DNA of 64,000 nucleotides from the NCBI GenBank assembly GCA_963281255.1, contig OY725488.1, positions 11,939,524 to 12,003,523 on the forward strand, written 5' to 3'. Shown one piece after another: positions 3,649 to 50,681 of this stretch. The notes below the pieces were generated by a model. The model was not told the DNA's origin, ran no database searches, and was given only the letters and a program-made list of their open reading frames with translations. A program made the position numbers and the translations under genes. Origin of the DNA: Aphrocallistes beatrix. Taxonomy: Eukaryota; Porifera; Hexactinellida; Sceptrulophora; Aphrocallistidae. The first letter of the stretch is position 1, and every line of letters begins with the position of its first letter.

Positions 3649-4822
3649 ATGGAGGAAGACCTTGGAACTATTTTTATTGTTGGACTTGAAGGAAAGACAA
3701 AAAGTGTGATTTTGGAAAACAGAAAAATCGCAGTTAGTTTTTATTGATTATTTATATATTAACTGTATTAATATGAAGAAGAATATCTATATCCAGCAAT
3801 TTAAAAATAGTTAGCTGTTAATATACTTCAAAAAGTTCTCATCCCATATCTGTATCGCAAATTATAGTGAAAATAGGATATTTTCGATTTGTCCATTGTA
3901 TTCCTTAGGGGATTAGTTTCCATTTTGTATATTGGTTTATTTTAAGAGGACAATGATTGTGGTTTCTACAATGGATTTTTGTTCATCGGTTTAGGGTAGT
4001 GTCGAAAAGTTGGAATCTTCCCATTGAAAATGGCTTGAAACTAAATTTGGAGAAAAAAGTTGTGAAAATCGTAGAATAAGGTCAATAAAGGTTAAATAAT
4101 TAGTTCCAAAGTGAAAAAGTAAACGGGAGGTGTTCAATAGTATTGCTCGTAATGAAAAATATCATGCCACTTTTAGTGGATTCACCAGTGTTACCAATCT
4201 CAAGTTTCTAGCTCTTCTAGTTTTTGTAAAATAAGCAAAAGAATGAAATCACATGAAATCACAGGCCAGCGGCCACCCGTTTGTAGTCCCTTACTGACCC
4301 TAAAACTGTGTATAACGGCCATGACCTGTCTATAACGGCCACTACCTATCTATAACGGCCATCACCTTTTTCACCTTTTTAAGTTTCTATTACATGACTT
4401 ATTACGAACGATAAACAAATTTCATGTAATTACTTCAAGTAATGGATTTCTAAAAGCTTGATATTTATTGCACTACGTTGATACCTTTGGTGATTAAGAC
4501 AATCACTTGTATATAATGGTCATCTGTGTATAACGGTCAATTTTGTCCAGTCCCTTGGGTGGCCGTTATATACAGGTTCCACTGTATATATAAGTATATA
4601 TAATTGTCATCCTCTCTTTACTAGAATTTTACAGTCTCTGAACTGAAAAATGACTTAGTTAAGAAGACTGGAATCGAAGAAGTGCAGCAGAGACTGATCT
4701 TTGCTGGGAAAGAGTTACTGGTAGAAAGAATGGGGCGAAAGATGATCATGAGTGATTACAACATTAGAAATGGGTCTACAATAATGTTGGTAATCAGACT
4801 TCCTGGTGGTATTTGCTCTTAG
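3649..4822 (+). CDS. Ubiquitin-like protein, copy 1 (two exons)
   Basis: Small ubiquitin-fold modifier of 93 residues. Exon 1 is 3649-3732 (28 codons), donor GTTAGT; exon 2 is 4625-4822, acceptor CTAG, with a phase-0 junction. Exon 1 gives strands beta-1/2 with the Gly-Lys-Thr turn of ubiquitin (Lys11 equivalent). Exon 2 contains [11 protein letters not shown], almost identical to ubiquitin 40-50 and so retaining the Ile44 patch and Lys48. It also has SDYNI and ends VIRLPGG followed by Ile-Cys-Ser. Arg72 is kept and Arg74 is Pro. A three-residue tail after Gly-Gly implies processing by a Ubl protease, as for ubiquitin precursors. It is the most ubiquitin-like of six paralogs here and has a longer N-terminus. 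The intron carries a truncated mariner-type MITE and a pogo-like repeat. The RBR gene at 6609 follows. Confidence 0.85.
3826..4190 (+). mobile_element. Truncated Tc1/mariner-like MITE in the Ubl-1 intron
   Basis: This is the left half of the same element found complete at 39386-40143 and, divergently, at 5735-6475. The shared order is an 'aaaagttctcatcc' end, a 'ccattgtattccttagggga' block and a 'gggaggtgttcaatagtatt' block. It breaks off just after the 'cacttttagtggatt' segment, so the right inverted repeat is missing. Confidence 0.7.
4262..4584. mobile_element. pogo/Tigger-like MITE relic
   Basis: The right end read in reverse starts CAGTGGAACCTGTATATAAC followed by GGCCACC; the left end carries a degraded copy (ggccacccgtttgtagtccc). 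Between them the motif 'tataacggcca' is repeated several times. CAGT ends and the 'accct' type start are usual in pogo/Tigger non-autonomous elements. It lies in the first intron of Ubl copy 1. Confidence 0.5.
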
Positions 4823-4983
4823 AGATATTAAGTAAAGAGGATAAGTTTATTTGTGAACATTTTTACTTGATTTCTCTATTTGCCATAAAAATGTTATTCT
4901 TTACCTCTTAGGTTATTTTGTATACATTTATATGTATTCAACATAATAAGTATATAATCTAAACTATTTTATACTTGTAAATA

Positions 4984-5216
4984 CAGTACACCCTCGTTAA
5001 TCTGAATAACTCTGTACAGATTATTAAAAACTCGTTCGGATTATTGAATTTTTCCGATTAGTGAAATATTACTAATTCAATAGGAAAATAGCCATAATAA
5101 TACTTATAAATTTATAATATGAAAGTATTAAGGTTATTATTTCTCTATTAGAGGCGAATAATATGCCACATTTTGCAGTTCGGATTATTAAGGTTCGAAT
5201 TCACGAGATTTGACTG
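4984..5216. mobile_element. pogo-like MITE
   Basis: It starts CAGTACACCCTCGTTAATCT and ends with a complementary imperfect copy finishing ACTG, preceded by TA. The central part is AT-rich and non-coding. Related ends are seen near 44640-44820. Confidence 0.5.
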
Positions 5217-5454
5217 ATAAGTCTATATGGCACGAAGGATCTACCTAAAAAGTTTTTCAGACCTCTATACTAATTAATATATGCATGTCTTGCATTTCTC
5301 ATACCAATCGGGCACTTGAATATTTCTCATTTTGCATTATGCATTGTTGCAGATTCAATGCTTCATGGTATTACCCTTAGGCCGCCTCTTTCAATCTCAA
5401 AAGCCATTTGATAATTATTGTATACAACTTATGTATATTTATACAGGTGTTTAA

Positions 5455-6608: not shown

Positions 6609-7433
6609 ATGTCTGGAGCCTGCAAATACGCACCTGATACTGACGGTATAAAGATCTGGAACATAAGGGTGGGATCAGATTATTTCATAGAGAACCGAGA
6701 CGAAACTAGAACAGTGAAATTTCCTCATGCTAAAGGGGAATGTTATGTGTGTGGTGATGAAGGAGGCCTTAAAATGCACTGCGAACATTTCATCTGTCCA
6801 GATGATCTGCTCGATCTCGCTTGGGAAAGTATTGGGACTATGAAACACGAGATTAGCTGTGGTAGTTGTACATCTATAATCAGCGTTGATGACATCATCA
6901 AATTTGGGATGCCAAAAATGGATGAGGAGCAGTTCCTAATTTCCGCGATTTCAGTTAATTTTTGTGAGAGTCAAGACATCCAACAGTGTCCGAGCTGTAA
7001 GAGCTACTGTGAGAGAATGGATACTAACAGTCCACAAGTTAAATGCACTGTCTGCAGTAAGAAGCTGGGGAGAGAATTCCAGTTTTGCTGGTATTGCTTA
7101 AAGATATGGAAAGACATAAAGAATTATGAAAATTGTGGAAATTCGAAGTGTAAGAAGGATGTCGTTAAGCAGCTACAGGATTCACCTAAAATGATTTTCA
7201 AGGATCGTCAAGACAAATCCGTTTCTGTTCCCAAAATTCGAGCTTGTCCAAGATGCTCTACCATTTTACAGCATAACACTGGGTGTAATGAAATGACCTG
7301 CAAAATGTGTGGACTGAAGTTCTGCTTTATCTGCCTCAGGAATACTATTGAAGGAACTTTGGTGTGTACTGGAAGAAATTATACTGGTATCACATGTACT
7401 CCTGCACCTATGCAAACTTTACGGTCTGCATAA
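6609..7433 (+). CDS. RBR (RING-IBR-RING) E3 ubiquitin ligase-like, copy 1
   Basis: 274 residues in one exon. RING1 at about residues 45-90 has Cys-x2-Cys (45/48), Cys-x-His-x2-Cys (58-63) and a final Cys-x2-Cys; the sixth ligand position is Asp (CPDD). An IBR follows at about 125-180 (CPSCKSYC, VKCTVC, FCWYC, CGNSKC). RING2 at about 210-245 reads ACPRC...GCNEMTC...FCFIC; the Cys after Gly matches the catalytic Cys of parkin/HHARI-type ligases, which accepts the modifier from E2 and transfers it to the substrate. It is the most divergent of the full-length copies: the family tail TPAPIQTKL is TPAPMQT followed by a different end. It follows Ubl copy 1 and precedes the E2 gene. The start is the first Met of the frame, matching the N-terminal length of its relatives. 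Confidence 0.85.
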   Translation: MSGACKYAPDTDGIKIWNIRVGSDYFIENRDETRTVKFPHAKGECYVCGDEGGLKMHCEHFICPDDLLDLAWESIGTMKHEISCGSCTSIISVDDIIKFGMPKMDEEQFLISAISVNFCESQDIQQCPSCKSYCERMDTNSPQVKCTVCSKKLGREFQFCWYCLKIWKDIKNYENCGNSKCKKDVVKQLQDSPKMIFKDRQDKSVSVPKIRACPRCSTILQHNTGCNEMTCKMCGLKFCFICLRNTIEGTLVCTGRNYTGITCTPAPMQTLRSA

Positions 7434-8084: not shown

Positions 8085-10178
8085 ATGAGTTCAATATCCC
8101 TCCAATTACACCATCCCACACATAGCCATGGCATAGGTCGGGCAACGAAGAGGCTCCATAACGAATACAAGAAATTTTTAGAATCTCCTCCTCAAAATAT
8201 TAAGGTTGCATTCAAAGAAGATCAAATTTTAGAATGGCACTTCTTATTTACAGGGCTTATCGGCACCCCCTTTAAAGGAGGAGAGTACCATGGGATGTTG
8301 ATATTCACTGAAGATTACCCTTTCTCTCCTCCATCTATTCGGTTCATTACGCCTAACGGACGCTTCAAGACAGACGAGAGAGTTTGCTTTGAATTGAGTG
8401 ATTTCCATCCTAAGTGTTGGAAACCTGCGTACACTGTGTCAGCAGTGTTACAAGGAGTGTATAGCTTCATGATGAGTGAGACTACTGATACAGTGGGGAG
8501 TTTGAACATGAATGAGACTCAAATAAGAAGTCTAGTTAGAAATAGCAAAAACTTTAATAGAAAAGATAAGATTTGCAATGAACTATTTCACAATCAGTTC
8601 ACATCCAACCCTGGTCATACTGATTCGTCTACGACTACTCTTACCTCAGAGAGTCTACCAAATTATTCGGATCAGCAAAGTGACTTCTCGAAATCTTCGT
8701 CATATAATTTAAGATCACAAAAATGTACTTCGGGAACAGTTGCAAATTCCGAACTGAGATCTGCAAATATAAAACAGATGCCATCAGAATGTACTACATT
8801 TAACACCTTAGATACATCTCGACAAGAAAACCCTGAATCATCAGAATTTGGAGAGATTCCTACCAATAATAGTAAGCTCAATAATTCTGAAGTTTCGCTA
8901 CAAAGTCTTTATCAATCAGTTTCGCAACGACATGAGCCTTCTTTATTCTCAAATAAAGTCAATTCAAGTTTGTCAATGAAAAGGACTAAAAAATTATCTA
9001 GAGAATTTCAAGAAATAATTGATAATCCAAATGATAACATATTAGTAAGCTATAGTGAAGATCTAATCTCAGAATGGCACTTCTTATTTACAGGACTTAA
9101 TGGTACTCCCTTTGAAGGAGGAGAGTATCATGGAATGTTGATGTTCTCTGAAGATTATCCTTTCTCTCCTCCCTCCATTCGGTTCATTACGCCTAACGGA
9201 CGTTTCCAGATAAATAAGAGAGTTGAATTGAGTCATTTCTATCCTGTGTGCTGGAAACCTTCGTACACTGTATCATCATTTTTACAAGGAGTGTATAGCT
9301 TCATGATGACTGAGACTACTGATACAGTGGGGAGTTTGGAAAGGAATGAGAGTGAGATAAAAAAATTAGCTGGAAAGAGCAGAGAATTTAATTTTCAAGA
9401 TGGTTCTGCAGAGTTATTTCATAATGAGATCAAAGTTGCACTAATTGAAAATTCTGACACTGATCCAATACATTCACAAATCAATAAACCAGATATTTCA
9501 TCTCAAGAATCCCAATCCTGTTCTTCTCCAGATATGTTGAAGCCAGATGTATCATCAAAGGCGGTTGAAACATCTGAAACTACTGATACAGTTCGGAGTT
9601 TAGATGTAGATGAGAATGAAATAAATAATCCAGCTGGAATGAGCAATCCATTTTATCCGAACGACAGCCCCGCAGCGCTGTTCAAAACTGAGATCAAAGA
9701 TGATTTAACTCCTTCAATAAGCAAGAAAATCAAGAAGACTCATATCTCATCACTTCAAAAAATCAAATCCTCTTCTCTCCCAGAGGCATTGAAGCTAACT
9801 GTATCATCTAGTGAGTCTATCAAAACAGGAGAATTGGCCTCAACTAGCTCTGCTTCTTCTCCAGATAAAAAAGCGCAAGTTTCCAAATTAGGTCACACTC
9901 GAAAACATGATGAAAATATTTCCTCTAGATCCCAGATTAATGAAATAAATTCGAAAACACCACGCCTCAACCTTCAAAAAGAGACCAGAGCTTCCCGCGA
10001 TAACCAAAATTTGGATAAATATAAATGTACATCAATTTATCATAATTCTAAAGTGCAAAGCGGATCCCTGTTTCGAAAAGAAGAAATCAATGCACAAAAT
10101 TCCAAAATGCTCAAATCCATTGATATTCCAAAACCTAAGCTAGAGAACAAGTACATCGTATCTTCATTCAAATGTTAG
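8085..10178 (+). CDS. Tandem UBC-domain E2 (UBE2J2/Ubc6-like), second domain lacking the catalytic Cys
   Basis: 697 residues, one exon. UBC domain 1 spans about residues 15-170 and is UBE2J2/Ubc6-like: TPFKGGEYHG, FPF-type YPFSPPSIR, ITPNGRF, then the catalytic Cys101 in ERVCFELSDFHP, and a C-terminal TVGSL...NELF segment. After a Ser-rich linker (about 175-295), UBC domain 2 (about 298-460) repeats all of this. Its DNA lacks exactly the six bases TGCTTT between 9224 and 9225, so the active-site Cys-Phe is gone and the domain should be E2-inactive, like UEV proteins. A third copy of only the last part of the UBC fold (ETTDTVRSLDVDENEIN) begins at about residue 499. The tail is Ser/Lys-rich with no membrane anchor, unlike typical Ubc6/UBE2J proteins. 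It probably supplies the E2 activity of the cluster. Confidence 0.88.
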   Translation: MSSISLQLHHPTHSHGIGRATKRLHNEYKKFLESPPQNIKVAFKEDQILEWHFLFTGLIGTPFKGGEYHGMLIFTEDYPFSPPSIRFITPNGRFKTDERVCFELSDFHPKCWKPAYTVSAVLQGVYSFMMSETTDTVGSLNMNETQIRSLVRNSKNFNRKDKICNELFHNQFTSNPGHTDSSTTTLTSESLPNYSDQQSDFSKSSSYNLRSQKCTSGTVANSELRSANIKQMPSECTTFNTLDTSRQENPESSEFGEIPTNNSKLNNSEVSLQSLYQSVSQRHEPSLFSNKVNSSLSMKRTKKLSREFQEIIDNPNDNILVSYSEDLISEWHFLFTGLNGTPFEGGEYHGMLMFSEDYPFSPPSIRFITPNGRFQINKRVELSHFYPVCWKPSYTVSSFLQGVYSFMMTETTDTVGSLERNESEIKKLAGKSREFNFQDGSAELFHNEIKVALIENSDTDPIHSQINKPDISSQESQSCSSPDMLKPDVSSKAVETSETTDTVRSLDVDENEINNPAGMSNPFYPNDSPAALFKTEIKDDLTPSISKKIKKTHISSLQKIKSSSLPEALKLTVSSSESIKTGELASTSSASSPDKKAQVSKLGHTRKHDENISSRSQINEINSKTPRLNLQKETRASRDNQNLDKYKCTSIYHNSKVQSGSLFRKEEINAQNSKMLKSIDIPKPKLENKYIVSSFKC

Positions 10179-10995: not shown

Positions 10996-11652
10996 ATGGC
11001 GTCTGAGATGGTGGTTGAAGAGTTGACTTTCGAGTGTCCCTCAGAAGCAGGAGCCTACTTCATGAAGAGAAGGGACCTTCACCGGGAACAAGTAGCGGAC
11101 GAGTTCGGACAGTGCACCACCTGCTTTGACGACAATTCTGGTAAGTTGGAATGTGAGCATTTCCTCTGCTCTCACTGCATGCTGTACTACGCCTGGCAGC
11201 AGCTAGAGAGAGGACAGCGGGAGTTCGGCTGTCCAGTCTGCAAAGTGAAACTGACCATGGACCTGGTGCTACAGCTGGGGAGACCGGATGAGCTGGAGAA
11301 ATCCTGGCTAGACAAGTTCCTGACTCGGAATCTGAACGAAGACCTGGAACGCAAGCCTAAAGACGCATCGGAGAAGATCAACCTCCTCCTCCACACTTCT
11401 CCCTCACGCGAGATCAGCGATGACAATGGAGTTAAGCTTCAGGTGCCCGAGTTGAGAGTCTGTCCGTCTTGCTACACTGTAATAATGCACTCAGAAGGCT
11501 GCTACAAGATCACGTGTATTGGATGTAGAACCACGTTCTGTTTCATCTGTCTCACACTCGTAACAGCTGATTCTTCTTGTGGGAGCACTTTTACCAGTTT
11601 TCACTGCCAGCCTGCAGGGCATCAAGTTATAAAGGAGAAGGTCTTACTATGA
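10996..11652 (+). CDS. Short RBR-related protein lacking the IBR, GC-rich
   Basis: 218 residues, one exon. RING1 at about residues 45-90 is CTTC...ECEHFLCSHC...CPVC, with the canonical Cys at the sixth ligand position where the other copies have Asp. The whole IBR segment (the CPxC...CTVC...CWYC run of its relatives) is absent and replaced by a charged stretch. RING2 reads VCPSC...EGCYKITC...FCFIC, keeping the putative catalytic Cys. The family tail TPAPIQTKL is absent. Codon usage is distinctly GC-richer than in all neighbours, so this copy has a different history (an older functional gene or a retained ancestor). It may act as a RING-type scaffold or an RBR-like ligase; without IBR the transfer mechanism is uncertain. 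Confidence 0.75.
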   Translation: MASEMVVEELTFECPSEAGAYFMKRRDLHREQVADEFGQCTTCFDDNSGKLECEHFLCSHCMLYYAWQQLERGQREFGCPVCKVKLTMDLVLQLGRPDELEKSWLDKFLTRNLNEDLERKPKDASEKINLLLHTSPSREISDDNGVKLQVPELRVCPSCYTVIMHSEGCYKITCIGCRTTFCFICLTLVTADSSCGSTFTSFHCQPAGHQVIKEKVLL

Positions 11653-12149: not shown

Positions 12150-12440
12150 GGCCATATCGAATTCTTGAAATTTATAGAATCTCCTGAAAATATTAAAGTT
12201 ACATTCTAAGAAGATCTAATTTTAGAATTGCACTTATTTACTTCTTATTTCAGGGCTTATTGGCACCCCATTTAAAGGAGAGTATCATGAAATCCTGATA
12301 TTCCCCCAAGAATATCCTTTCTCTCCTCCATCGATTCAGTTCATTACTAGAAAAAGTAAGGATTAATATAGAAAAAATAAGATTTGCAATGAAATGTTTC
12401 ACATTCAGTTCATATCCAATCCTGACCAGGGTATTATACA
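12150..12440 (+). pseudogene. E2 (UBC-domain) relic
   Basis: The sequence resembles the start of UBC domain 1 of the gene at 8085: 'gaatctcctgaaaatattaa', then 'gggcttattggcacccca', 'tatcctttctctcctcca' and 'cagttcattac'. Frameshifts and stops break it, the stretch around the catalytic Cys is missing, and it jumps to a segment like the end of the domain (aataagatttgcaatgaaat). Confidence 0.7.
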
Positions 12441-15984: not shown

Positions 15985-16262
15985 TTCCTGTTCATAACTA
16001 GCATTTCATAAAGTTCCACTGCAAAATCTTTATCAATCAGTTTCTCACAACAACTTGCGCCTTCACATACTTCTTTATTCTGAAACAATTCAAAATTGTC
16101 AATGAAAAGGACAGAAATAATTTCAAAAAATACTAGAAAATCCAATTGAAAACATAGTAGTAAATTATAGTCGAGATCTAATTTAGAATGGCACTTCTTA
16201 TTTGCAGGGTTTAATGGGATCCCCTTTAAAGGAGGAGAGTATCATGTTGATGTTCTCTGAAC
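15985..16262 (+). pseudogene. E2 relic: linker and start of UBC domain 2
   Basis: Collinear with 8895-9150 of the tandem E2 gene: 'tctttatcaatcagttt', 'ttgtcaatgaaaagga', 'gatctaat...gaatggcacttctta', 'ggaggagagtatcat', 'ttgatgttctctgaa'. It contains frameshifts and small deletions (for example the bases for His-Gly-Met are shortened) and ends abruptly where a GGGACGG-rich repeat begins. Confidence 0.8.
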
Positions 16263-16521: not shown

Positions 16522-16843
16522 ATGGACAATATCTACATTTCAGGACTTGAAGGTAAAACGGTTGCTTTCCACGTCCAATCTACGAAAACAAAGGTTAGTT
16601 TCAAAAATCAATATTTCTCAACTTAATCCAAAATTTATTATGCTTTTAAATTAGAATTATAGAATATCAGAGCTGAAAGTGTGGATACAGGATAATATGG
16701 CAGTGAAAGTGGAGGATCAGCGTTTAATATTTGGGACTAAACAATTGGAAGATGCTATTGACGGTGAAGAAATGACTTTTGGAAAATATAGAATAAATAA
16801 TGGAGCATGTATTGTGCTAGTAATTAGGCTTTCAGGTGGATAA
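16522..16843 (+). CDS. Ubiquitin-like protein, copy 2 (two exons), ends in bare Gly-Gly
   Basis: 86 residues. Exon 1 is 16522-16593 (24 codons, donor GTTAGT) and encodes MDNIYISGLEGKT; exon 2 is 16655-16843 (acceptor TTAG), phase 0. Exon 2 contains ISELKVWI, then QRLIFGTKQLED (Ile44 patch and Lys48 equivalents) and ends VIRLSGG directly followed by TAA. It is the only copy here with no residues after Gly-Gly, so it would not need precursor cleavage. Position 74 is Ser where the other copies have Pro and ubiquitin has Arg. The RBR gene at 17365 starts only 522 bases downstream on the same strand, the tightest Ubl-RBR pair in the array. Confidence 0.85.
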
Positions 16844-17364: not shown

Positions 17365-18231
17365 ATGGGCACGGATAATTCACGTCCCGCGATTATTCCA
17401 GAGGAAATCGCAATATCAAATCCATTTTCTTCCAGGGGGGTTGAATTTACTGATTCGAAAAATGGAGCGAAGTATTTTAAAGGCACACGCGATCAAACAA
17501 GGATGATTAAGTTTATTCATCCAACAGGACAATGCAATACATGCCATGAAACCGGTTTACGAATGGAATGTGGTCACTACATTTGTCCAGATGATATTCT
17601 CGACACTGCTTGGGGACAGTTGAGCAACAGGAAACATGAGATTGACTGTACTGAGTGTAATAAACATATAAAGCAGGATGATATCATAAAATTTGGTCTA
17701 CCAACTCTAGAAGAAGAGCAATTCCTCATCACTGCTATAACCACAAACTTTTGCAAGAGTCAAGGTATTCAGCCATGTCCTAAGTGTCGATCTCTCTGTC
17801 AGAGGACTCGGACAGACACTCCACTAGTACATTGCACTGTCTGTCTTAAGAAGCGCGGGAATTTATTTGAATTTTGTTGGTACTGTCTAGGTGAATGGAA
17901 TAACCCATTAAATTTCCAAGATTGTGGAAATAAGGATTGCGAAAAAGCTCTAATCGAGGCATTAATCAATTCACCCATGAAACAGCTCAAATACCTTAAT
18001 GGTAATGTCATAGAAATCCCAACTAGAAGAGCTTGTCCTCAATGCCATACCATACTTGAGCATTCTGAAGGTTGCAACGAGTTCACATGTTCTTTATGCA
18101 AACAAGAATTTTGTTTTATTTGTCTTTCAAAGTTAATTGATGGAAGTCTAAAATGCGGGAGCTTTACCTGTAATTCGATTGGCATTATGATTAGATGCAC
18201 CCCTGCTCCCATCCAGACCAAACTAAGATGA
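17365..18231 (+). CDS. RBR E3 ubiquitin ligase-like, copy 3
   Basis: 288 residues, the longest copy because of about 14 extra N-terminal residues. It has the family block RDQTRMIKF-HPTG, then RING1 (CNTC...ECGHYICPDD...CTEC) with Asp at the sixth ligand position, the IBR (CPKC...HCTVC...FCWYC...CGNKDC) and RING2 (ACPQC...EGCNEFTC...FCFIC) with the catalytic-type Cys. The C-terminus is CTPAPIQTKLR, the conserved tail. It should act with an E2 to transfer ubiquitin or one of the local Ubls; that choice is not visible from sequence. An acceptor-like 'ttcag' lies just before the ATG, so the coding exon is probably preceded by an untranslated exon. It is paired with Ubl copy 2. Confidence 0.87.
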   Translation: MGTDNSRPAIIPEEIAISNPFSSRGVEFTDSKNGAKYFKGTRDQTRMIKFIHPTGQCNTCHETGLRMECGHYICPDDILDTAWGQLSNRKHEIDCTECNKHIKQDDIIKFGLPTLEEEQFLITAITTNFCKSQGIQPCPKCRSLCQRTRTDTPLVHCTVCLKKRGNLFEFCWYCLGEWNNPLNFQDCGNKDCEKALIEALINSPMKQLKYLNGNVIEIPTRRACPQCHTILEHSEGCNEFTCSLCKQEFCFICLSKLIDGSLKCGSFTCNSIGIMIRCTPAPIQTKLR

Positions 18232-19767: not shown

Positions 19768-20449
19768 ATGGATAATATTTACATTTCCGGGTTTGAAGGG
19801 AAAACCAGAGCCTTTCACATCCCATCTGGGAAATTCAAAGTAAGTCAATTTGTTTCTAAATTTAGCTACCGTATCTAATGATAGTCAGGGTGGATTAATA
19901 ACTTTTAGTTCCATTTGCCACTTGATGAAAATTATGTTTCAGATTATTAAATCAATAAAACACACGAGCGATTAGATAAATGGTAGGTGGCAGTGGCGTA
20001 GCCAGGGGGTGGGGCAGCCGGGACCAGGCCCTGGTAGGGACCCCAACGTTTCAGTATTTCTGCATTGCGGCCCCGCTGAAATATTTGAGTGTCTTTGGTG
20101 TGTCCAGGTTAAGAAACGTCTGGCTACGGTACTGGTAAGAGGGAATAATTTGCTGTAAATATTTTTAAGGGGTAGCGAAAAGATATTACCCTGGGGAGGC
20201 GATTATTTGAGGGTCGACTACTGTTCAGGTTTATGCAGACTTCAATTTTAGAGATACAAAATTTCAGAGCTGAGGATTCTGGTTAAAACTAAGATAGGAG
20301 TGGCAATAGAGCATCAACGTCTTCTATTCGGGACGAAGGAGTTGGAGGACGTTTGTAATGGAGAAGTAATGACTTTTGAGAGGTATGGAGTCACTCCTGA
20401 GGCAAGCATCGTACTGGTAACCAGACTTCCAGGTGGTTGTGTCTCATAG
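19768..20449 (+). CDS. Ubiquitin-like protein, copy 3 (two exons)
   Basis: 89 residues. Exon 1 is 19768-19839 (24 codons, donor GTAAGT); exon 2 is 20252-20449 (acceptor TTTAG), phase 0. It encodes MDNIYISGFEGKT, then YKISELRILV, QRLLFGTKELED and VTRLPGG followed by Cys-Val-Ser. The Lys48 equivalent and Arg72 are kept; Lys63 is lost (the YGVTPEAS loop). It is nearly identical to copy 5 (42837), including the upstream sequence, so the two are a recent duplicate pair. Its intron holds a 144-bp hAT-like MITE (19991-20134) that copy 5 lacks. The RBR gene at 21910 follows. Confidence 0.87.
19991..20134. mobile_element. hAT-like MITE in the Ubl-3 intron
   Basis: It starts CAGTGGCGTAGCCAG and ends with the imperfect complement CTGGCTACGGTACTG. 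The flanking octamers gtaggtgg and gtaagagg match at six of eight positions, consistent with an aged 8-bp target duplication. Same family as 30084-30234. Confidence 0.75.
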
Positions 20450-21909: not shown

Positions 21910-22737
21910 ATGGCAGAATTTGATCCCTTTTTCGCCAGAAAGGTTGAATACAGCAATTCGCGTGCTTGCGGACATTTGTTTAAAGGAAGAAGAGATCAAA
22001 CCAGAACCGTTTCATTTCCGCATCCAACAGGAGACTGTACTATTTGCTATGATGATGGCGGTTTGAGAATGGGATGTGGTCATTACATATGTCCTGACGA
22101 CATTCTAGACTGGGCATGGGAACAGTTAAAACACATGAAACATGAGATTACCTGTGCCCAATGCAGGTATATTCTTAAGCAGGATGATATCATAAAATTT
22201 GGTCTACCAACCCTAGAAGAAAAGCAATTTCTGCTGACCGCCATAAGCACTAATCTCTGTGAGAGTCAGGATATTCAGGAATGCCCTCAATGTCGAACTC
22301 TCTGTCAGAGGACTAAGACAGATAATCCACAAGTCCATTGCACTGTCTGTCCTAAGAAGCGAGGCAATCTCTACATGTTCTGCTGGTACTGTATGCGCGA
22401 ATGGAATAACCCTTCAAACTATCAAGTATGTGGGAATGTGGGTTGTAAAAGAGAAATTATTGAAAAGTTGGTGAACTCACCTTTTAAAAACATTGTAGAT
22501 TATGGTGGTAAGACAGTAAGAATTCCTTCAATTAGAGCTTGTCCAAATTGTCACACACTCCTCCAACATAGATATGGTTGTAATCAATTCACCTGTTCTT
22601 CCAATAATTGCGGATTAGAATTTTGTTTTATCTGTCTAACTAGCACAAGTGGTGGAAGTCTCATCTGCAAGAGTTCAAGTGAAGGCAGTACTGGGATTGT
22701 GTGCACTCCTGCCCCCATTCAAACTAAGCTTAAGTAG
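21910..22737 (+). CDS. RBR E3 ubiquitin ligase-like, copy 4
   Basis: 275 residues, one exon. RING1 ligands are Cys43, Cys46, Cys56, His58, Cys61, Asp64 (in place of Cys), Cys82 and Cys85. IBR Cys are at 125, 128, 144, 147, 158, 161, 174 and 179. RING2 is Cys211, Cys214, Cys229, Cys234, Cys239 and Cys242, with Cys224 in GCNQFTC as the predicted catalytic residue. The tail is CTPAPIQTKLK. It is closely related to the next gene at 23635 (same order, long identical DNA stretches), a recent tandem duplication. The leader 'tattagcaatttac...' before ATG resembles those of the copies at 23635, 30465 and 49860. It is paired with Ubl copy 3 upstream. Confidence 0.88.
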   Translation: MAEFDPFFARKVEYSNSRACGHLFKGRRDQTRTVSFPHPTGDCTICYDDGGLRMGCGHYICPDDILDWAWEQLKHMKHEITCAQCRYILKQDDIIKFGLPTLEEKQFLLTAISTNLCESQDIQECPQCRTLCQRTKTDNPQVHCTVCPKKRGNLYMFCWYCMREWNNPSNYQVCGNVGCKREIIEKLVNSPFKNIVDYGGKTVRIPSIRACPNCHTLLQHRYGCNQFTCSSNNCGLEFCFICLTSTSGGSLICKSSSEGSTGIVCTPAPIQTKLK

Positions 22738-23634: not shown

Positions 23635-24456
23635 ATGGCAGAATATGATCCTTTTTTCGCCAGAAAGGTCGAATACAGCAGTTCACGTGCTTGTGGAGAT
23701 TTGTTCATTGGAATGAGAGATCAAACAAGAACCGTTTCATTTCCACATCCAACTGGAGACTGTACAATTTGTACAGATGATAGCGGTTTGAGAATGGCAT
23801 GTAGTCATTTCATATGTCCAGATGACATCCTTAATTGGGCATGGCAACAGTTAAGTAACATGAAGCATGAAATTAGCTGTGCCGAGTGCCCTGAGATTAT
23901 CAGTCAGGATGACATCATAAGATTTGGTCTTCCAACCCTAGAAGAAAAGCAATTTCTCCTTACAGCCTTCAGCACTAATCTCTGTGAGAGTCAGGATATT
24001 CAGGAATGCCCTCAGTGTCGAACTCTCTGTCAGAGGACTCGGACAGATAATCCACAAGTCCATTGCACTGTCTGTCCCAAGAAGCCAGGAAATCTGTTCA
24101 TGTTCTGCTGGTACTGTATGCGTGAATGGAATAATCCTTCAAACTATCAAATATGTGGGAATGTGGGTTGTAAAAGTGAAATAATTGAAAAGTTGGTAAA
24201 CTCACCTTTTAAAGATATTGGAGATCTTCATGGTAAGAGAGTCAGAATTCCTTCAATTAGAGCTTGTCCCAAATGTCACACACTCCTTGAACACAAAGAG
24301 CTTTGTAATCAATTCACCTGTTCTTTCTGTAAACTATTATTTTGTTTTATTTGTCTGACTTGTGCAAGTGGTGGAAGTCTCATCTGCAAGAGTTCAAGTC
24401 TCGGCCTCGCTGGGATAGTGTGTACTCCTGCTCCCATTCAAACTAAACTTACGTAG
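23635..24456 (+). CDS. RBR E3 ubiquitin ligase-like, copy 5
   Basis: 273 residues. RING1 (CTIC...ACSHFICPDD...CAEC), IBR (CPQC...HCTVC...FCWYC...CGNVGC) and RING2 (ACPKC...LCNQFTC...LFCFIC). The residue before the catalytic-type Cys is Leu instead of the usual Gly, and the hydrophobic LLFCF end of RING2 is also unusual, so activity may be altered. The tail CTPAPIQTKL ends in Thr. It is a tandem duplicate of the gene at 21910; the DNA from RING1 to IBR is nearly the same, while the RING2 region has diverged. The leader 'tattagcaaaagctt' directly precedes the ATG. Confidence 0.87.
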   Translation: MAEYDPFFARKVEYSSSRACGDLFIGMRDQTRTVSFPHPTGDCTICTDDSGLRMACSHFICPDDILNWAWQQLSNMKHEISCAECPEIISQDDIIRFGLPTLEEKQFLLTAFSTNLCESQDIQECPQCRTLCQRTRTDNPQVHCTVCPKKPGNLFMFCWYCMREWNNPSNYQICGNVGCKSEIIEKLVNSPFKDIGDLHGKRVRIPSIRACPKCHTLLEHKELCNQFTCSFCKLLFCFICLTCASGGSLICKSSSLGLAGIVCTPAPIQTKLT

Positions 24457-30464: not shown

Positions 30465-31301
30465 ATGGCTGAATGTGAATCGAATCCATTTTCAAACGCT
30501 GGAATCGAATTTTGGGATGCAAGAAGTCGTGGACAATATTTCTCTTATGGGAGAGATCAAACAAGGACTGTATCATTTCCTCACCCACAGGGTAAATGTA
30601 CTACCTGCTATGATGAAAGCGGTTTACGGATGGAATGTGGTCATTACATTTGTCCAGATGATCTTCTCGACTGGACATGGCAACAGTTGAGTAATATGAA
30701 GTATGAAATTGGTTGTGCTGACTGTGATAAGCCTATAAAGCAGGATGACATAATCAATTTTGGCCTACCTACGCTAGAAGAAAAACAATTTCTTATCACT
30801 GCTATAACCACTAATTTCTGCGAGAACAAAGATATCCAGCAATGTCCTCAGTGCCAAACGCTTTGTCAGAGGACCAATACAGACAATCCACAAGTACACT
30901 GCACTGTCTGTGCTAAGAAGAGCGGAAAAATCTATATGTTTTGTTGGTATTGTTTACACGAATGGAATAACCCTTCAAATTATCAAGTCTGTGGAAATGA
31001 AAAATGCAGGAAAGAGCAAATCGAAGAACTGATGAACTCACCGAAAAAGAAATTCAAAGATCGGAACGGTAAAATATTGAATATTCCAACTATAAGAGCC
31101 TGTCCTAAATGTCAAAGAATTTTGGAACATTCCGGCGGTTGTAACACTTTCACATGTCCTGCTGTTACATGCAAGCACAAATTTTGCTTCATTTGTCTCT
31201 CAGATAAGACTGGAGTTAGTACATTCTGCAATACCATAAGTTACGATCAGGCAATCGGCATTAAGTGCATACCTGCTCCCCTCCAGACCAAACTGAAGTA
31301 A
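30465..31301 (+). CDS. RBR E3 ubiquitin ligase-like, copy 6
   Basis: 278 residues, one exon. The family N-terminal block is GRDQTRTVSFPHPQGKC. RING1 is CTTC...ECGHYICPDD...CADC, again with Asp at the sixth ligand position. IBR is CPQC...HCTVC...FCWYC...CGNEKC. RING2 is ACPKC...GGCNTFTC...KFCFIC with the catalytic-type Cys after Gly-Gly, as in parkin-like enzymes. The tail is CIPAPLQTKLK, a slight variant of the common CTPAPIQTKLK. Unlike the other pairs, its nearest Ubl gene (32002) lies downstream instead of upstream. The leader 'actagcaaagttaa' before the ATG resembles the other copies. Confidence 0.88.
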   Translation: MAECESNPFSNAGIEFWDARSRGQYFSYGRDQTRTVSFPHPQGKCTTCYDESGLRMECGHYICPDDLLDWTWQQLSNMKYEIGCADCDKPIKQDDIINFGLPTLEEKQFLITAITTNFCENKDIQQCPQCQTLCQRTNTDNPQVHCTVCAKKSGKIYMFCWYCLHEWNNPSNYQVCGNEKCRKEQIEELMNSPKKKFKDRNGKILNIPTIRACPKCQRILEHSGGCNTFTCPAVTCKHKFCFICLSDKTGVSTFCNTISYDQAIGIKCIPAPLQTKLK

Positions 31302-32001: not shown

Positions 32002-32338
32002 ATGGAAAATATCTACATTTCTGGACTCGAGGGGAAAACTAGAAATTTTCCAATTCTATCTTCAAAAATAAAGGTATGTATATTTCATAATTTTTAGACA
32101 AAATTATACACATTGACACCATTTATACGTACTTTAGAGATACAAAGTTTCAGAACTGAGAGCACTAATTAGAGATAGAATGGGAGTCAGTCTGGAAAAT
32201 CAACGTCTACTCTATGGAACTAAAGAGCTAGAAGATACTCATGCTGGTAATGCTATGACATTACAGGATTATGGTATCACAGGTGGAGCAACTATTGTGC
32301 TAGTGACTAGGCTTCCAGGTGGTTGTCCTTCATTATAA
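32002..32338 (+). CDS. Ubiquitin-like protein, copy 4 (two exons)
   Basis: 90 residues. Exon 1 is 32002-32073 (24 codons, donor GTATGT); exon 2 is 32138-32338 (acceptor CTTTAG), phase 0, with the shortest type of intron in the family (64 bases). It encodes MENIYISGLEGKT, YKVSELRALI, QRLLYGTKELED, YGITGGATIVLVTRLPGG and a four-residue tail Cys-Pro-Ser-Leu. The Lys48 equivalent and Arg72 are retained; Arg74 is Pro. It lies 700 bases after RBR copy 6. Confidence 0.87.
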
Positions 32339-34892: not shown

Positions 34893-35678
34893 TGGGCATG
34901 ATATCCGGCAAGGTCGAACACAGCTATTCGCGTAATTGCAGATGTTTGTTTACATCAATGAGAGATCAAACAAGAACCGTTTAATTTCCGCATCCAACAG
35001 GAGACTGTGCTATTTATACTGATGATTGCGTTTTGGGAATGAAATTGTGGACATTTCATATGTCCAGACATTCACAACTAGGCATGGCAACAGTTAAGTA
35101 ACATGAAGCATGAAATTAAATGTATTTTGTGTAAGGAGGCTACCAATCCATAATATTTGGTCTTCCAACCCTAGAAGAAAAGCAATTTCTCCTTACAGCC
35201 ATAAGCACTAATCTCTGTGAGAGTCAGGATATTCAGGAATGTCCTCAGTGTCGAACTCTCTGTCAGAGGACTAAGACAGATAATCCACAAGTCCATTGCA
35301 CTGTCTGTCTTGAGGAACGAGGGAATTTGTTTATGTTCTGTTGGTACTGTATGCGCGAATGGAATAGCCCTTCAGACTATCAAGTATGTGGGAATTGAGA
35401 TTGGAAAGGTGGGATAATTGAAAAGTTAATACGCTTACCTTTTAAAGAAATTGGATATTATATGGTGGTAATAGAGTCAGTATTTGTCTCAATTGTCACA
35501 TACTCTTCCAAAATGAAAATGGTTGTTATCAATTCATCTGTTCTTCCAAAAAGTGTAAAAACTTTTGTTTTATCTGTCTAACTAGCACAAGTGGTGGAAG
35601 TCTCATCTGCGAGAGTTCCAGCACAAGCAAACTGGGATTATATGTACTCCTGCTCCCATTCAAACTAAACTAAAGTAG
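34893..35678 (+). pseudogene. RBR E3 pseudogene
   Basis: Collinear with the genes at 21910 and 23635 from 'gccaga'-like start sequence (ggtcgaacacagctattcgc) to the conserved tail codons and stop (ctaaagtag, 35676-35678). Stops and frameshifts occur in the RING1 region (for example taatttccgc at 34982) and near 35395, and the RING2 Cys block is shortened. The IBR segment (about 35217-35400) is best preserved. Confidence 0.88.
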
Positions 35679-42836: not shown

Positions 42837-43169
42837 ATGGATAATATCTACATTTCTGGATTTGAGGGGAAAACCAGAACTTTTCACATTCCATCTGGGA
42901 AATTCAAAGTAAGTCTGTTTGAAGTGTGGATTTTATCTCGAGTATTTATATACTTTCAATCTTAGAAGTACAAAATTTCAGAGCTGAGGATTCTGGTTAA
43001 AAATAAGATAGGAGTGGCAATAGAGTATCAACGTCTTCTATTCGGGACGAAGGAGTTGGAAGACGTTTGTAATGGAGAAGAAATGACTTTTGAGAGGTAT
43101 GGAGTCACTCCTGAGGCAAGCATCGTACTGGTAACCAGGCTTCCAGGTGGTTGTGTCTCATACTCGTAG
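42837..43169 (+). CDS. Ubiquitin-like protein, copy 5 (two exons)
   Basis: 91 residues. Exon 1 is 42837-42908 (donor GTAAGT); exon 2 is 42966-43169 (acceptor CTTAG), phase 0, intron 57 bases. It encodes MDNIYISGFEGKT, YKISELRILV, QRLLFGTKELED, YGVTPEASIVLVTRLPGG and a five-residue tail Cys-Val-Ser-Tyr-Ser. It is almost the same as copy 3 apart from the intron (no hAT MITE here) and a slightly longer tail. The Lys48 equivalent and Arg72 are kept. RBR copy 7 follows 1.9 kb downstream. Confidence 0.88.
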
Positions 43170-45112: not shown

Positions 45113-45946
45113 ATGGCTGAGTATACATCAAATCCATTTTTTGCGAGGGGAATCGAATTTATTGATTCGAGAGCTGGGGGTAAGTATTTTGATGGCACAC
45201 GCGATGAAAAAAGGATGGTTAAGTTTTTTCATCCCACAGGACAATGTAGTACATGTTACCATGAAACCGGTTTACGAATGGAATGTGGTCATTACATTTG
45301 TCCAGATGATATTCTCGACTGGGCATGGGAACAGTTGAGTAACATGAAGCATGAGATTGGCTGTACTGAGTGCGGTAAAACGATCAAGCAGGATGATATT
45401 ATCAAGTTCGGTCTGCCTACTCTCGAAGAGAAGCAATTTCTCCTTACCGCCATAACAACTAATTTCTGTGAGAGTCAGGATATTCAGACATGTCCCAAAT
45501 GTCAAACTCTCTGTCAGAGGACTCGGACAGATAATCCACAAGTCCATTGCACTGTTTGTGCTAAGAAGCGAGGGAATGTGTTCATGTTCTGCTGGTACTG
45601 TATGCGTGAATGGAATAATCCTTCAAATGCTTATGTGTGTGGGAATGCGAATTGCAAGAAGGAGTTAATCGAAAAATTGATAAACTCGCCTAAAAAGGAA
45701 TTCATGGATAATAACGGGAATAAGGTGGTTATCCCAACGACAAGAGCTTGTCCCAGATGTCAAACACTTTATGAACATACCTACGGATGCAACCTATTTA
45801 CGTGTACATCAGCTGGTTGTGGGCAACAATTTTGCTTTATTTGTCTCTCAAAGAAGATCGGAGGAAGTCTGATCTGTAAGAGCGTAAGCTACAACACAAT
45901 TGGTATTAAATGCAAGCCTGCTCCCATCCAGACCAAACTAAAATAG
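45113..45946 (+). CDS. RBR E3 ubiquitin ligase-like, copy 7
   Basis: 277 residues, one exon. It resembles copy 3 most at the N-terminus (MVKFFHPTGQCSTC; an extra His gives CSTCYHETG). RING1 is CSTC...ECGHYICPDD...CTEC, IBR CPKC...HCTVC...FCWYC...CGNANC and RING2 ACPRC...YGCNLFTC...QFCFIC with the catalytic-type Cys. The tail is CKPAPIQTKLK. The IBR DNA (about 45468-45640) is nearly the same as in the copies at 49860 and 23635 although the flanking parts match other copies, a mosaic pattern. It is paired with Ubl copy 5. Confidence 0.88.
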   Translation: MAEYTSNPFFARGIEFIDSRAGGKYFDGTRDEKRMVKFFHPTGQCSTCYHETGLRMECGHYICPDDILDWAWEQLSNMKHEIGCTECGKTIKQDDIIKFGLPTLEEKQFLLTAITTNFCESQDIQTCPKCQTLCQRTRTDNPQVHCTVCAKKRGNVFMFCWYCMREWNNPSNAYVCGNANCKKELIEKLINSPKKEFMDNNGNKVVIPTTRACPRCQTLYEHTYGCNLFTCTSAGCGQQFCFICLSKKIGGSLICKSVSYNTIGIKCKPAPIQTKLK

Positions 45947-47108: not shown

Positions 47109-48711
47109 ATGAATAATATCCACATTTCAGGATTCGAAGGCCAAACCAGAACCTTCAACATTCCAGCTTCGAAGATGAAGGTATGTTAAAGATGAATATG
47201 TTCTTATTTGTACAATAAACCTGTCTATAACTGGAAACTGATGAACCTATTTAAGATGGTAATTATATAATTTTTTGTTTGTTGTCATAATGGGAAGGTT
47301 CAAAGGCGTCATTATCGATAGCCAATCCCATCTACATTGATGGGGCCAAGACCCTTCCTCTCCATTAACATTGATGGAGTCGAGAGCCACATCAATTTGT
47401 CGCTACAAACTCCAAAGTTTGACGCCCATAGGAAGGTTGACTGTTTTTGACCTTTTCACCGAATCTTAACTAGTAAAACGCGATTAATATGTATATACTT
47501 GTACATAAATTAATATACACATTATATTAAAAGACTTCTACCACTTAAAATGGCTGAGTTATGGTCGAAAGACTGAAATTTCAAATTATAAAAAAGTTAG
47601 TTGAGGTGACAATGACGTCATAATTCCATGATGAGTCGACATTTTGGTCTGAACTCAGAACTTGCTGGAGCCATAGCCAAAAGACTCCCACATACCAAAA
47701 AACAACTTTCTCTCTTAAATCAATTCGTTATACTAGTATATATATATCCTTACTATTAAAACTCGATTAATGTATATACTGTATATATATATATATATAT
47801 ACGTATATATATATATAATATATATTTGGCATGTGGGATTCTTTTGGTTATGGCTCCAGTAAGTTCTGAGCTCAGACGAAAATGTCGACTCATCATCGAA
47901 TTATGACGTCGTTGTCACCTTTTTTATAATTAGAAATTTTAGTTTATTGACGATAACTCAGCCAAGTGATAGAAGGCTCAAATTTCAATAGAAAGTGTAT
48001 ATTAATATAGCTCACATATGATGCAACTATCATAAAAAAACTGATGACTCATCACTCTGTTTTGACGTCATCATTACGCATCAAAATTATTAAAAATTGA
48101 CAAATTTGGCGATTTTTCATGCGATATCGATTATAACAGTAAGACAGACGTATTAGAGAGGTTATCTCCTTTATAATCAATCAATGTGACCCCAGGCGCC
48201 CAAAGGGCGCCTCCAGCGGACACAAAGTGTCCGCCACCCGCGCACCGCAAGCAAGCGAAGCGCGATTATAATATATATAACAAATTGATTGAATAAACTG
48301 GCGCAGAAAGCGGGCATGCCTAATTTACGGGACGGGACGGCATCCCGTCCCGTAAATTAGGCATCTTAACTCATCCCGTTCCATCTCCCCTATATTTAAT
48401 CAATGTGACCCCAAGCGCCCTCTGGAGGAGACAAACTATATGCCAGCCGCGCAGCGCATGCAAGCGAAGCACGCTTGTTACTATTGAATCAGGTTTTACA
48501 ATTATTTCTATTTTAGAAATATCCCATTTCAGAGCTGAAGATACTAGTTAGAAATAGCATGGGGGTGTCAGTGGAGTATCAACGCTTACTGATCGGAAAC
48601 AAGGAGCTGGAAGATGAGAAAGATGGAGTGGCGATGACTTTCCAGGATTATGGGATTGAGCGAGAAGCAACCATTGTTCTGGTGACTAGGCTTCCAGGTG
48701 GTTTTGCCTAA
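47109..48711 (+). CDS. Ubiquitin-like protein, copy 6 (two exons, repeat-filled intron)
   Basis: 88 residues. Exon 1 is 47109-47180 (donor GTATGT); exon 2 is 48517-48711 (acceptor TTTTAG), phase 0. The intron of 1,336 bases is filled with dispersed repeats. It encodes MNNIHISGFEGQT (Gln replaces the Lys11-equivalent), YPISELKILV, QRLLIGNKELED, YGIEREATIVLVTRLPGG and a two-residue tail Phe-Ala. The Lys48 equivalent is kept. RBR copy 8 follows 1.15 kb downstream. Confidence 0.86.
47540..48485. repeat. Nested dispersed repeats in the Ubl-6 intron
   Basis: A plus-oriented partial copy (about 47540-47780) and a reverse-oriented near-complete copy (about 47745-48290) of the hairpin family face each other across TA microsatellites, followed by a perfect GGGACGG hairpin (48318-48362) and another hairpin-family fragment (about 48395-48485). 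Confidence 0.65.
48318..48362. repeat. Perfect 20-bp-stem inverted repeat
   Basis: GCCTAATTTACGGGACGGGA, five-base spacer CGGCA, then the exact reverse complement. No mismatches. Confidence 0.9.
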
Positions 48712-49859
48712 TCTTAAGACAACACTATTTCTATCGTTATACTTTCGTAGCATGTAGTTGGATATTCTTCCATATACGTATGTATTTACAGTGATTATTT
48801 GCTTTCCCAAACATTTTGACTTCTTATTTTGTGAAAATCTTTCAAAATGAACTCTCTTTTATAATTACTGTACGTAGTCCTTAGTATTACGAACACCTGA
48901 GCTATCGGATCCGTTTAAATCAAAGTTTGTTTTCAGATTCTTTAATTCATCTAAATTTAAGTTCACTAATAAAAAGAGGGCATCTATGACTAATTGAATT
49001 ATCTAAAATAAACTCTTTAAAAAATTTGCGATTAAAAATATTTCCTGTTTTGTTATTAAAAGACATACTTTTGACATTTTGTAAAACGATGATATACAAG
49101 CCAAATGATATGAATTTCCGCTGCCTATCACTCACAACTGCTCCAAATTCTTGTGGTAATCTTCCTTTATTTATCAAATACTAATAAGCAATTAATAAGC
49201 AAGGTTGTTAATAACAATGAGATGTTATCAGCAATTTTGCAATTCTTATATAGTGCCTCGCTTTGTATATGCTATTCAACTACTATGTCAAGAATATATG
49301 ATGTTCTCAAAAAGATGTTATATATCAATTTATTACTGTAACTAAAACGTTGCTAAATCTATATCTTTGCAATTTTTTAATTCTACTAGTTTTCAGTTTG
49401 CCGAATATACCTTGTTACAATGCTAGTAACAACTAATTGGATTGTTTAAACGCCTCAAATTCGACTAAAATGGCATTTAAACTTTCTGTCAATCGGTGAA
49501 GAAATTTTGCTGTTAATACAGAGTTGCACGCTGGTTGTGCCAGGTCTCCGTATCGACTCATGGGCAAATGTGGGACGGTGTATGCGCGTTAATTTCAAGA
49601 GATTTAGAGTCAGTTGGCCCCCAAAACACTAGAATTTTAGGGCCCCTTAATCCCTAAATCGCGATCCCGATTTCGGTCCGCGTGTAACTAACATAACAGC
49701 AAAGGGATATAATTGCATAATTATCAATCCTTAACATGAGAGACCTTATTAATATAAATTGGTTTAAAGCATTTGAATACATTACCTAGTATTTATTGAT
49801 GATTCAATTAAATCCCAAACAATGAAAACCTTTCTTTTTGTTGGATTATTAGCAAAATT
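48712..49859. other. Intergenic, nothing recognised
   Basis: AT-rich spacer between Ubl copy 6 and RBR copy 8; the GC-richer stretch at 49530-49690 is non-coding. ORFs 48947-49177 (minus) and 49153-49341 have no family signature. Confidence 0.4.
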
Positions 49860-50681
49860 ATGGCAGAATCAAATCCTTTCTTCGCCAGGAACGTGGAATA
49901 CAGTGTCTCACGAATTTGTGGACATTTGTTCATAGGAGAGAGAGATCAAACAAGAACCGTTACATTTCCGCATCCAAAAGGGGATTGTATAGTTTGTACT
50001 GATGAGAGTGGTTTGAAAATGGGATGTGGTCATTACGTATGTCCTGACGACATTCTAGACTGGGCATGGGAACAGTTAAGAACCATGAAACACGAAATAA
50101 GATGTCCTGAATGCGAGTACATTCTCAAGCAGGATGATATCATAAAATTTGGTCTACCAAAAACAGAAGAAAAGCTATTTCTCCTTACCGCCATAACAAC
50201 TAATTTCTGTGAGAGTCAGGATATTCAAGAATGCCCCAAGTGTCAAACTCTCTGTCAGAGGACTAGGACAGATAATCCACAAGTCCATTGCACTGTCTGT
50301 GCCAAGAAGCGAGGAAATCTATTCATGTTCTGCTGGTACTGTATGCGCGAATGGAATAATACTTCAAATGATTATGTGTGTGGAAATGCGAAGTGTAAGA
50401 GAGAAATAATCGAAAAGTTAATGAACTCTCCCAAAATGGTAATTTCTGACATTAAAGGTAATAAGCTAACAATTCCTAAAATGAGAGCTTGCCCAAAATG
50501 TCATACTCTCTTAGAACATTCTCACGGATGCAATATGTTTACCTGTGGCCATTGCGGACTAGAATTTTGCTTTATCTGTTTGACTAATACGAGTGGTGGA
50601 AGTCTCATCTGCAAGAGCTCAAGTGGAGAGTTTACTGGAATTTTGTGTACCCCTGCTCCCATTCAGACAAAACTTAGGTAG
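49860..50681 (+). CDS. RBR E3 ubiquitin ligase-like, copy 8
   Basis: 273 residues, one exon. RING1 is CIVC...GCGHYVCPDD...CPEC (Asp at the sixth ligand), IBR CPKC...HCTVC...FCWYC...CGNAKC and RING2 ACPKC...HGCNMFTC...EFCFIC with the catalytic-type Cys; tail CTPAPIQTKLR. The N-terminal block is ERDQTRTVTFPHPKGDC. The first third is closest to copies 4 and 5, the IBR to copy 7. The leader 'attagcaaaattATG' is like that of copy 5. It is the last RBR of the array and is paired with Ubl copy 6. Confidence 0.88.
   Translation: MAESNPFFARNVEYSVSRICGHLFIGERDQTRTVTFPHPKGDCIVCTDESGLKMGCGHYVCPDDILDWAWEQLRTMKHEIRCPECEYILKQDDIIKFGLPKTEEKLFLLTAITTNFCESQDIQECPKCQTLCQRTRTDNPQVHCTVCAKKRGNLFMFCWYCMREWNNTSNDYVCGNAKCKREIIEKLMNSPKMVISDIKGNKLTIPKMRACPKCHTLLEHSHGCNMFTCGHCGLEFCFICLTNTSGGSLICKSSSGEFTGILCTPAPIQTKLR

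Follow-up and report, generated by a model that had tools for sequence, protein, structure and literature searches.

Introduction

Proteins of the ubiquitin fold that end in Gly-Gly (GG) are activated by an activating enzyme (E1), passed to the cysteine of a conjugating enzyme (E2) and, where the ligase (E3) is of the RING-between-RING (RBR) type, transferred to the cysteine of its RING2 domain. In UBA52 and RPS27A the modifier is joined by Gly-Gly to a second protein and is freed by cleavage. Prokaryotic ubiquitin-like operons, those of Caldiarchaeum and of the Bil systems, encode modifier and E2 together (Caldiarchaeum also an E3) and include an E1 and a deubiquitinase, as described in PMC11354881. 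Here a 64,000-nucleotide stretch from the glass sponge Aphrocallistes beatrix (C1:11939524–12003523, referred to as the window; the genome comprises 100.5 Mb in 28 contigs) is analysed, which carries clustered genes for ubiquitin-like proteins (Ubls), RBR ligases and an E2. No second animal locus is known to us in which a modifier, an E3 and an E2 recur together as a unit with a fixed order.

Each part belongs recognisably to the ubiquitin system; what is unusual is how the parts are arranged. The reading we favour, with modest confidence, is a glass-sponge expansion of a Ubl–RBR(–E2) cassette, the split form of an older one-gene precursor, whose products would be a conjugatable modifier, its E3 and an E2 served by a general E1.

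Results and discussion

The cluster extends far beyond the window

The window and the 200 kb to its left were read as one contiguous stretch of 263.5 kb containing no N. Positions beyond it were taken from sequence matches across the genome, the letters of C1:11.40–11.74 Mb being outside the stretch read. A genome-wide search with one window RBR gave 37 matches, every one of them inside C1:11.40–11.99 Mb; 18 are stop-free and cover at least 259 of 277 residues. When the first UBC domain of the window E2 was the query, 31 of 70 matches, including all the closest ones, fell in C1:11.667–11.956 Mb (47–100% identity). The best full-domain UBC matches outside the cluster reach 41% (C16) and 38% (C1:5.44 Mb), and shorter matches elsewhere 40% (C18) and 45% over 40 residues (C4). 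Ubl relatives are less confined than the other two families, with further ones on C12, C16 and C20.

The cluster spans about 0.6 Mb. A preliminary description of the window had reported the three families within about 47 kb, so their clustering is borne out and is larger than claimed. The six Ubl genes it placed in 3649–50681 were all found, all on the plus strand and with two exons (Table 1), and the single tandem-UBC E2 is present at 8085–10178. Its eight intact RBR genes are indeed eight open frames, of which seven are full length; the gene at 10996 (218 residues) is short and lacks the IBR stretch. The five Ubl-then-RBR pairs also hold: five Ubls precede an intact RBR, and the sixth (32138) precedes a broken remnant (34928–35649).

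Gene order within the cluster

The 263.5 kb contain 13 Ubl genes. For all 13, the first member of these three families to follow downstream on that strand is an RBR (two of these RBRs are broken), with gaps of 0.5–4.0 kb. Other genes may intervene: a TRAF-type zinc-finger frame (11908522–11909394) lies in the 4.0-kb gap of the 11906280 pair. When the Ubl and RBR labels alone were shuffled, 38 of 200,000 arrangements reached 13 out of 13, and none of 100,000 did so with the E2 genes included; these tests ignore common descent by block duplication and gauge non-randomness, not independent events.

The order continues as Ubl→RBR→E2 at four loci of the contiguous stretch, namely window 4625→6609→8085 and the groups of 11857855, 11900883 (where RBR and E2 are both broken) and 11906280. 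By match positions, a fifth triad lies on the minus strand at C1:11.667–11.673 Mb (Ubl 11672407–11672601, RBR 11668836–11669594, tandem UBC 11667013–11668287); its Ubl was sought after the pattern had been noticed and was then found by position.

Distances between Ubls are correlated with those between their downstream RBRs (Mantel r=0.83 over the 11 pairs with an intact RBR; 2 of 20,000 permutations were as high). Such a correlation is expected if Ubl and RBR were copied together. Tandem duplication is evident, as membrane-protein and sugar-transporter frames of the window recur, by eye, along the cluster. The locus could be a record of tandem duplication of neighbours, in which RBR and E2 use ordinary ubiquitin and the Ubl imitates ubiquitin or competes with it. 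The evident duplication of other gene types and the existence of Ubl relatives without RBR neighbours agree with this. The fusion of Ubl and RBR in cnidarians, molluscs, deuterostomes and fungi, however, suggests a link older than the duplications, and the correlated distances point the same way, though joint copying alone would give them. We consider the explanation unlikely.

The hydrophobic membrane-protein-like gene copies are found at window 25964, 33554 and 36707 and at C1 piece L035:2425-3576, interleaved with the cassettes. By eye they recur about 140 kb away, as do the sugar-transporter frames; the two copies scanned gave no Pfam match.

The Ubls retain a conjugation-type terminus

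The Ubls match PF00240, and a cluster Ubl matches ubiquitin in the PDB; two of them share 39–42% identity with the ubiquitin encoded in the same genome. Exon-1 candidates with a GT at a codon boundary were found for all 13 Ubls of the contiguous stretch (for the Ubl at 11774265, among its open frames), two of which have further, less likely choices besides the one taken. All 13 have GG followed by 0–5 residues and a stop. In the 10 Ubls aligned, the Arg72 equivalent, Gly75 and Gly76 are invariant, and Lys48 is kept in nine. The ratio of nonsynonymous to synonymous change (dN/dS) in Ubl exon 2 is 0.12–0.55 for pairs with dS below 2, single values being rough at 62 codons and few changes; in the RBRs it is 0.14–0.29 for pairs with dS below 1.5. 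Both the Ubls and the RBRs are under purifying selection.

The terminus also bears on a possible regulatory function. The Ubl might stay unconjugated and regulate its RBR in trans, comparable to the Ubl of parkin in cis, and the cluster would then keep the regulator beside its enzyme. Ubl and RBR do adjoin or form one protein, and the RBR has parkin among its top matches by fold. Yet a regulatory domain needs no Gly75-Gly76. These are the two most conserved columns of the fused proteins, and no sponge Ubl aligned departs from them; in the sponge they stand directly before the stop or a short variable tail. Regulation in trans is improbable in our view.

Two features had been put forward as marks of co-evolution, and both were rejected. 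Position 74 was described as Pro or Ser; it is Pro in five and Ser in one of the window Ubls, but Gln, Arg and His occur in the wider cluster, and the fused relatives show no constraint there (L, P, H, R, K and others). The shared C-terminal tail of the RBRs, APIQTKL, has a counterpart, APVQTxIPG, in the fused-family consensus. Neither feature speaks for co-evolution of these particular genes.

Two further groups of ubiquitin-like sequences were noted. Five frames of 236-280 residues at C20:475-492 kb each carry a relative of the window Ubl; the one that was read keeps RLLGG, followed by about 150 residues with no Pfam match. Weak, stop-riddled UCH matches adjoin this array (C20:475059 and 480242). 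At C15:555-585 kb there are dense, diverged ubiquitin repeats in frames of up to 680 residues; they differ from the polyubiquitin genes on C12 and C16, whose repeats score equally.

RBR ligases and E2 enzymes

All named matches in the RBR search (6 of 55 rows) are from Oopsacas minuta, with 49–62% identity. The predicted structure of the 45113 RBR, built from 50 aligned sequences, has a mean predicted local distance difference test score (pLDDT) of 86.9. In the PDB the closest matches to this model are parkin and HHARI (E about 1.5e-6), with low template modelling scores (0.25–0.35) because the domain arrangement differs from theirs. By sequence the RING2 matches that of parkin, and the catalytic RING2 cysteine is kept in all 15 cluster RBRs compared.

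The UBC domains are of the Ubc6/UBE2J type, with Ubc6 (9.4e-45) and UBE2J2 (8.4e-38) as the best PDB matches. Their catalytic cysteine is kept in 24 of 29 UBC matches and is lost, replaced or not covered in the other five. A strongly hydrophobic C-terminal end is present in a subset of the E2s; judged by hydropathy only, the window E2 has none, and the triad E2s of the stretch read have no C-terminal hydrophobic helix. A 1,708-residue open frame at C1:11913859-11918982 consists of one UBC domain and a long tail without a Pfam match.

One-gene relatives in other animals and in fungi

The weakest matches of the first RBR search were two metagenome Ubl–RBR proteins, P0054 and P0055. A search with P0054 returned 138 proteins, and the best 120 were examined; here Ubl and RBR are encoded in one gene. 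The matches listed take in cnidarians, molluscs, amphioxus, hemichordates and a flatworm. Animals named among them are Saccoglossus, Ptychodera, Glandiceps, Branchiostoma, Dendronephthya, Montipora, Actinia, several bivalves, Gigantopelta, Macrostomum and Owenia, and the fungi among them are glomeromycetes (Rhizophagus, Glomus, Cetraspora and others). In the database the fused proteins are labelled 'DDB_G0292642-like' or uncharacterised; no Dictyostelium protein is among the matches listed. The existence of one-gene relatives gives good support to the view that Ubl and RBR take part in a common process.

The fused set was defined as the 96 of the best 120 of 138 with at least 70 residues before the CxH of RING1; 24 were left out. 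Gly75 and Gly76 are each Gly in 92 of the 94 ungapped rows and are the top two of 76 Ubl columns. When the set was thinned to 29 sequences (60% identity) they were kept in 27 of 28, tied with position 4. Arg72 is found in 90 of 96 and Leu73 in 89 of 95, while position 74 is mixed. The pattern [RKQ][LVITM]xGG occurs in 91 of 96 and is absent from P0071, P0148, P0155, P0163 and P0166. The residue that follows GG (92 rows) is never Pro, and in 65 it is Ser or Ala. The conserved GG and the lack of a following Pro suggest that the fused protein is a precursor cleaved into modifier and ligase.

The model of the amphioxus protein P0112 has a mean pLDDT of 90.1 and a predicted template modelling score of 0.64, and its sole segment of at least three residues under pLDDT 50 (81–83) is at the GG. 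The VIA-align result for this model was filled by ubiquitin-fold rows and has no bearing on the RBR part. With P0112 as query, none of 80 matches in the sponge genome spans both the Ubl and the RBR part, and matches of the RBR part all fall in the C1 cluster, except for a weak one on C2. The simplest history would be one fused gene that underwent fission in glass sponges and then expanded; the alternative is the reverse direction.

In Oopsacas, one gene model (P0012, 399 residues) joins a Ubl that lacks its GG to a complete RBR, which has a MAD start of its own. Since the fused form is common elsewhere, Ubl and RBR could likewise be exons of one fused gene in A. beatrix, and six of the 11 pairs do have an AG separating the in-frame stop from the start Met of the RBR. 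However, every Ubl frame stops 0–5 codons past GG, and in the other five pairs no AG separates the RBR Met from an in-frame stop that precedes it by 0–3 codons. There is thus no in-frame acceptor before the Met in these five, which argues against one gene there; splicing into the RBR frame itself would be compatible with these stops. We regard a fused sponge gene as highly improbable. P0012 is most simply explained as two neighbouring genes merged by annotation, and Oopsacas also has a separate 91-residue Ubl (P0174) that ends RLPGG-NRYFH. The same longest contig figure is given for P0174 and the RBRs P0017 and P0043 (75,650 bases), and likewise for the RBR P0003 and the Ubl piece P0178 (5,973 bases), which suggests that the Ubl and RBR proteins with equal figures are on common contigs.

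E1 enzymes and other ubiquitin-system arrays

The genome contains an E1 on C14 that is UBA6-like (470.6 bits, against 292.3 for UBA1). One exon piece of an E1 on C7 scored 90.5 bits for 'E1 ubiquitin-activating enzyme', 67.7 for UBA1, 52.3 for UBA7 and 31.8 for UBA6, so this enzyme is UBA1-like. Further E1-type matches on C4 and C6 are unclassified. Because the Ubls keep Arg72, a shared E1 (ordinary UBA1 or UBA6) is expected.

Other expansions were observed. A second, unrelated array at C7:223-390 kb has 18 UBC matches, of which 13 fall within frames of 900-1150 residues; the one piece read is vWA-UBC-U-box, so that E2 and E3 are in one protein. The UBA1-like E1 is situated within this array (C7:357.5-360.3 kb). 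At C17:3.63-3.67 Mb there are 15 UCH (USP-type) matches in about 37 kb, mostly in long open frames and all on the minus strand, a putative further expansion of the ubiquitin system.

How the cassette may work

According to the expansion-and-fission reading favoured here, each Ubl would be made with 0–5 residues past Gly-Gly and trimmed, where needed, by a deubiquitinase-type protease. Activation would fall to a general E1, UBA1 or UBA6, able to accept the Arg72 of the Ubl, and the Ubl would then pass to an E2. The partner RBR, probably paired with that E2, would receive the Ubl on its RING2 cysteine and attach it to targets. In the fused relatives, a protease cut after Gly76 would release modifier and ligase one to one. 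The residues for the chemistry from E1 to RBR (Ubl GG, E2 Cys, RING2 Cys) are present in most copies. We infer that the neighbours work together; for Ubl and RBR this is backed by the fused relatives, for the E2 by neighbourhood alone.

Many copies, several of them broken, point to birth-and-death evolution as in immunity genes, and the cassettes may serve a fast-evolving task, for example in immunity. Tandem expansion of AIG1-domain genes in Aphrocallistes, with immunity discussed, and the presence of a spliced leader in glass sponges are described in PMC10282587. For operon-type transcription the signal is ambiguous: an AG precedes several RBR starts by no more than about 15 bases, in DNA that is AT-rich.

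Several observations weigh against this reading. The second UBC of the window E2 (8970-9419) has no catalytic cysteine, the alignment showing a two-residue gap there, which suggests a helper domain beside the active one. E2 genes are next to only five known Ubl–RBR pairs, most E2s are outside triads, and those with the C-terminal hydrophobic helix are not in such triads. The triad count is weak as independent evidence: 4,309 of 100,000 shuffles reached four. The histidine two residues after the RING2 cysteine has a role in parkin and HHARI and is not universal in RBRs; it is absent in 14 of 15 cluster RBRs (present in R11854949), and its loss may have weakened or altered RBR activity. As a sponge-only mark this loss is weakened, since 9 of 46 aligned fused relatives have Gln there. 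The Ubl relatives of C12, C16 and C20 sit away from any match of the cluster RBR family. None of 24 ThiF and none of nine UBA_E1_SCCH genome matches is on contig C1, and a cluster-borne E1 was rejected, all E1-type matches being on other contigs. In C1:11.40-11.99 Mb there is none of 61 UCH and none of nine Peptidase_C48 matches (JAMM, OTU and other classes were not searched). The candidate 'dedicated conjugation module' of the preliminary description is supported in part, by the clustering and by the selection, correlated distances and fused relatives seen here. These do not extend to exclusivity: the cluster has no E1, UCH or C48 match, the E1 candidates are encoded elsewhere, and Arg72 is kept, so that ordinary UBA1 or UBA6 could charge the Ubls.

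We advance a broader version only tentatively and think it somewhat doubtful. Ubl–RBR genes of animals and fungi would deliver a private modifier and its own ligase one to one, and glass sponges would have split the gene, recruited a UBE2J E2 and multiplied the set into an array of parallel, diversified Ubl–E3 pairs, a fast-evolving tagging system separate from ubiquitin.

Features of the window

The coordinates are collected in Table 1. Just past the last cassette, three very long single-frame genes (778-1662 residues, ankyrin-like by eye) occupy window 51852-62746 on the minus strand.

Table 1. Ubl, RBR and E2 features of the A. beatrix window (window coordinates)
Feature	Position	Strand	Remarks
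Ubl-1 exon 1	3649..3732	+	28 codons, then GTTAGT donor
Ubl-1 exon 2	4625..4822	+	
RBR	6609..7433	+	274 residues
UBE2J-like E2	8085..10178	+	697 residues, two UBC domains: UBC1 8130-8582 with catalytic Cys, UBC2 8970-9419 without
Short RBR-like gene	10996..11652	+	218 residues, no IBR stretch in alignment
UBC remnant	12226..12363	+	
UBC remnant	16121..16248	+	
Ubl-2 exon 1	16522..16593	+	
Ubl-2 exon 2	16655..16843	+	ends RLSGG-stop, no extension
RBR	17365..18231	+	288 residues
Ubl-3 exon 1	19768..19839	+	
Ubl-3 exon 2	20252..20449	+	ends RLPGG-CVS-stop
RBR	21910..22737	+	275 residues
RBR	23635..24456	+	273 residues, no upstream Ubl of its own
RBR	30465..31301	+	278 residues, no upstream Ubl of its own
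Ubl-4 exon 1	32002..32073	+	
Ubl-4 exon 2	32138..32338	+	ends RLPGG-CPSL-stop
Broken RBR remnant	34928..35649	+	downstream of Ubl-4
Ubl-5 exon 1	42837..42908	+	
Ubl-5 exon 2	42966..43169	+	ends RLPGG-CVSYS-stop
RBR	45113..45946	+	277 residues; predicted structure with pLDDT 86.9, best PDB matches parkin and HHARI
Ubl-6 exon 1 (candidate)	47109..47180	+	
Ubl-6 exon 2	48517..48711	+	ends RLPGG-FA-stop
RBR	49860..50681	+	273 residues

Significance and comparison with known systems

Among the top-ranked titles and abstract openings listed in a literature search, none mentions such a cluster or a processing step in Ubl–RBR proteins; the fused family may have been mentioned earlier in an animal RBR survey cited by PMC2904391. 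In the papers on the Aphrocallistes and Oopsacas genomes, the main text does not contain the word 'ubiquitin'. The precursor model predicts that a cut after Gly76 frees a new modifier in amphioxus, corals, bivalves and Rhizophagus. If true, this would be a widespread, so far unrecognised family of ubiquitin-like modifiers, and the Ubl–E3 pairs of glass sponges would form a natural series in which to study how modifier–ligase specificity evolves.

Compared with the Caldiarchaeum and Bil operons, the sponge cluster is without an E1, UCH or C48 match. UBA52 and RPS27A resemble the fused relatives in that a modifier is fused through Gly-Gly to a second protein, but their partner is a ribosomal protein and that of the fused relatives an E3 ligase; in the sponge there are already two genes. 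The UBC domains match UBE2J and yeast Ubc6, and some cluster E2s keep the C-terminal hydrophobic helix, whereas the triad E2s of the stretch read lack it by hydropathy and the window E2 has two UBC domains. Parkin likewise combines Ubl and RBR, and the sponge RING2 aligns with its RING2. In contrast to parkin, the sponge Ubl is a separate GG-ending protein, and an RBR of 277 residues would, judging from its length, leave little room for a RING0.

The closest counterparts are the one-gene Ubl–RBR proteins. They form one polypeptide, whereas the sponge cluster has two genes in separate frames with stops, and the RING2 histidine is present in 37 of 46 aligned one-gene proteins compared with 1 of 15 sponge RBRs. 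They are like the cluster in their related RBR, in the order of Ubl then RBR and in the RLxGG of the Ubl.

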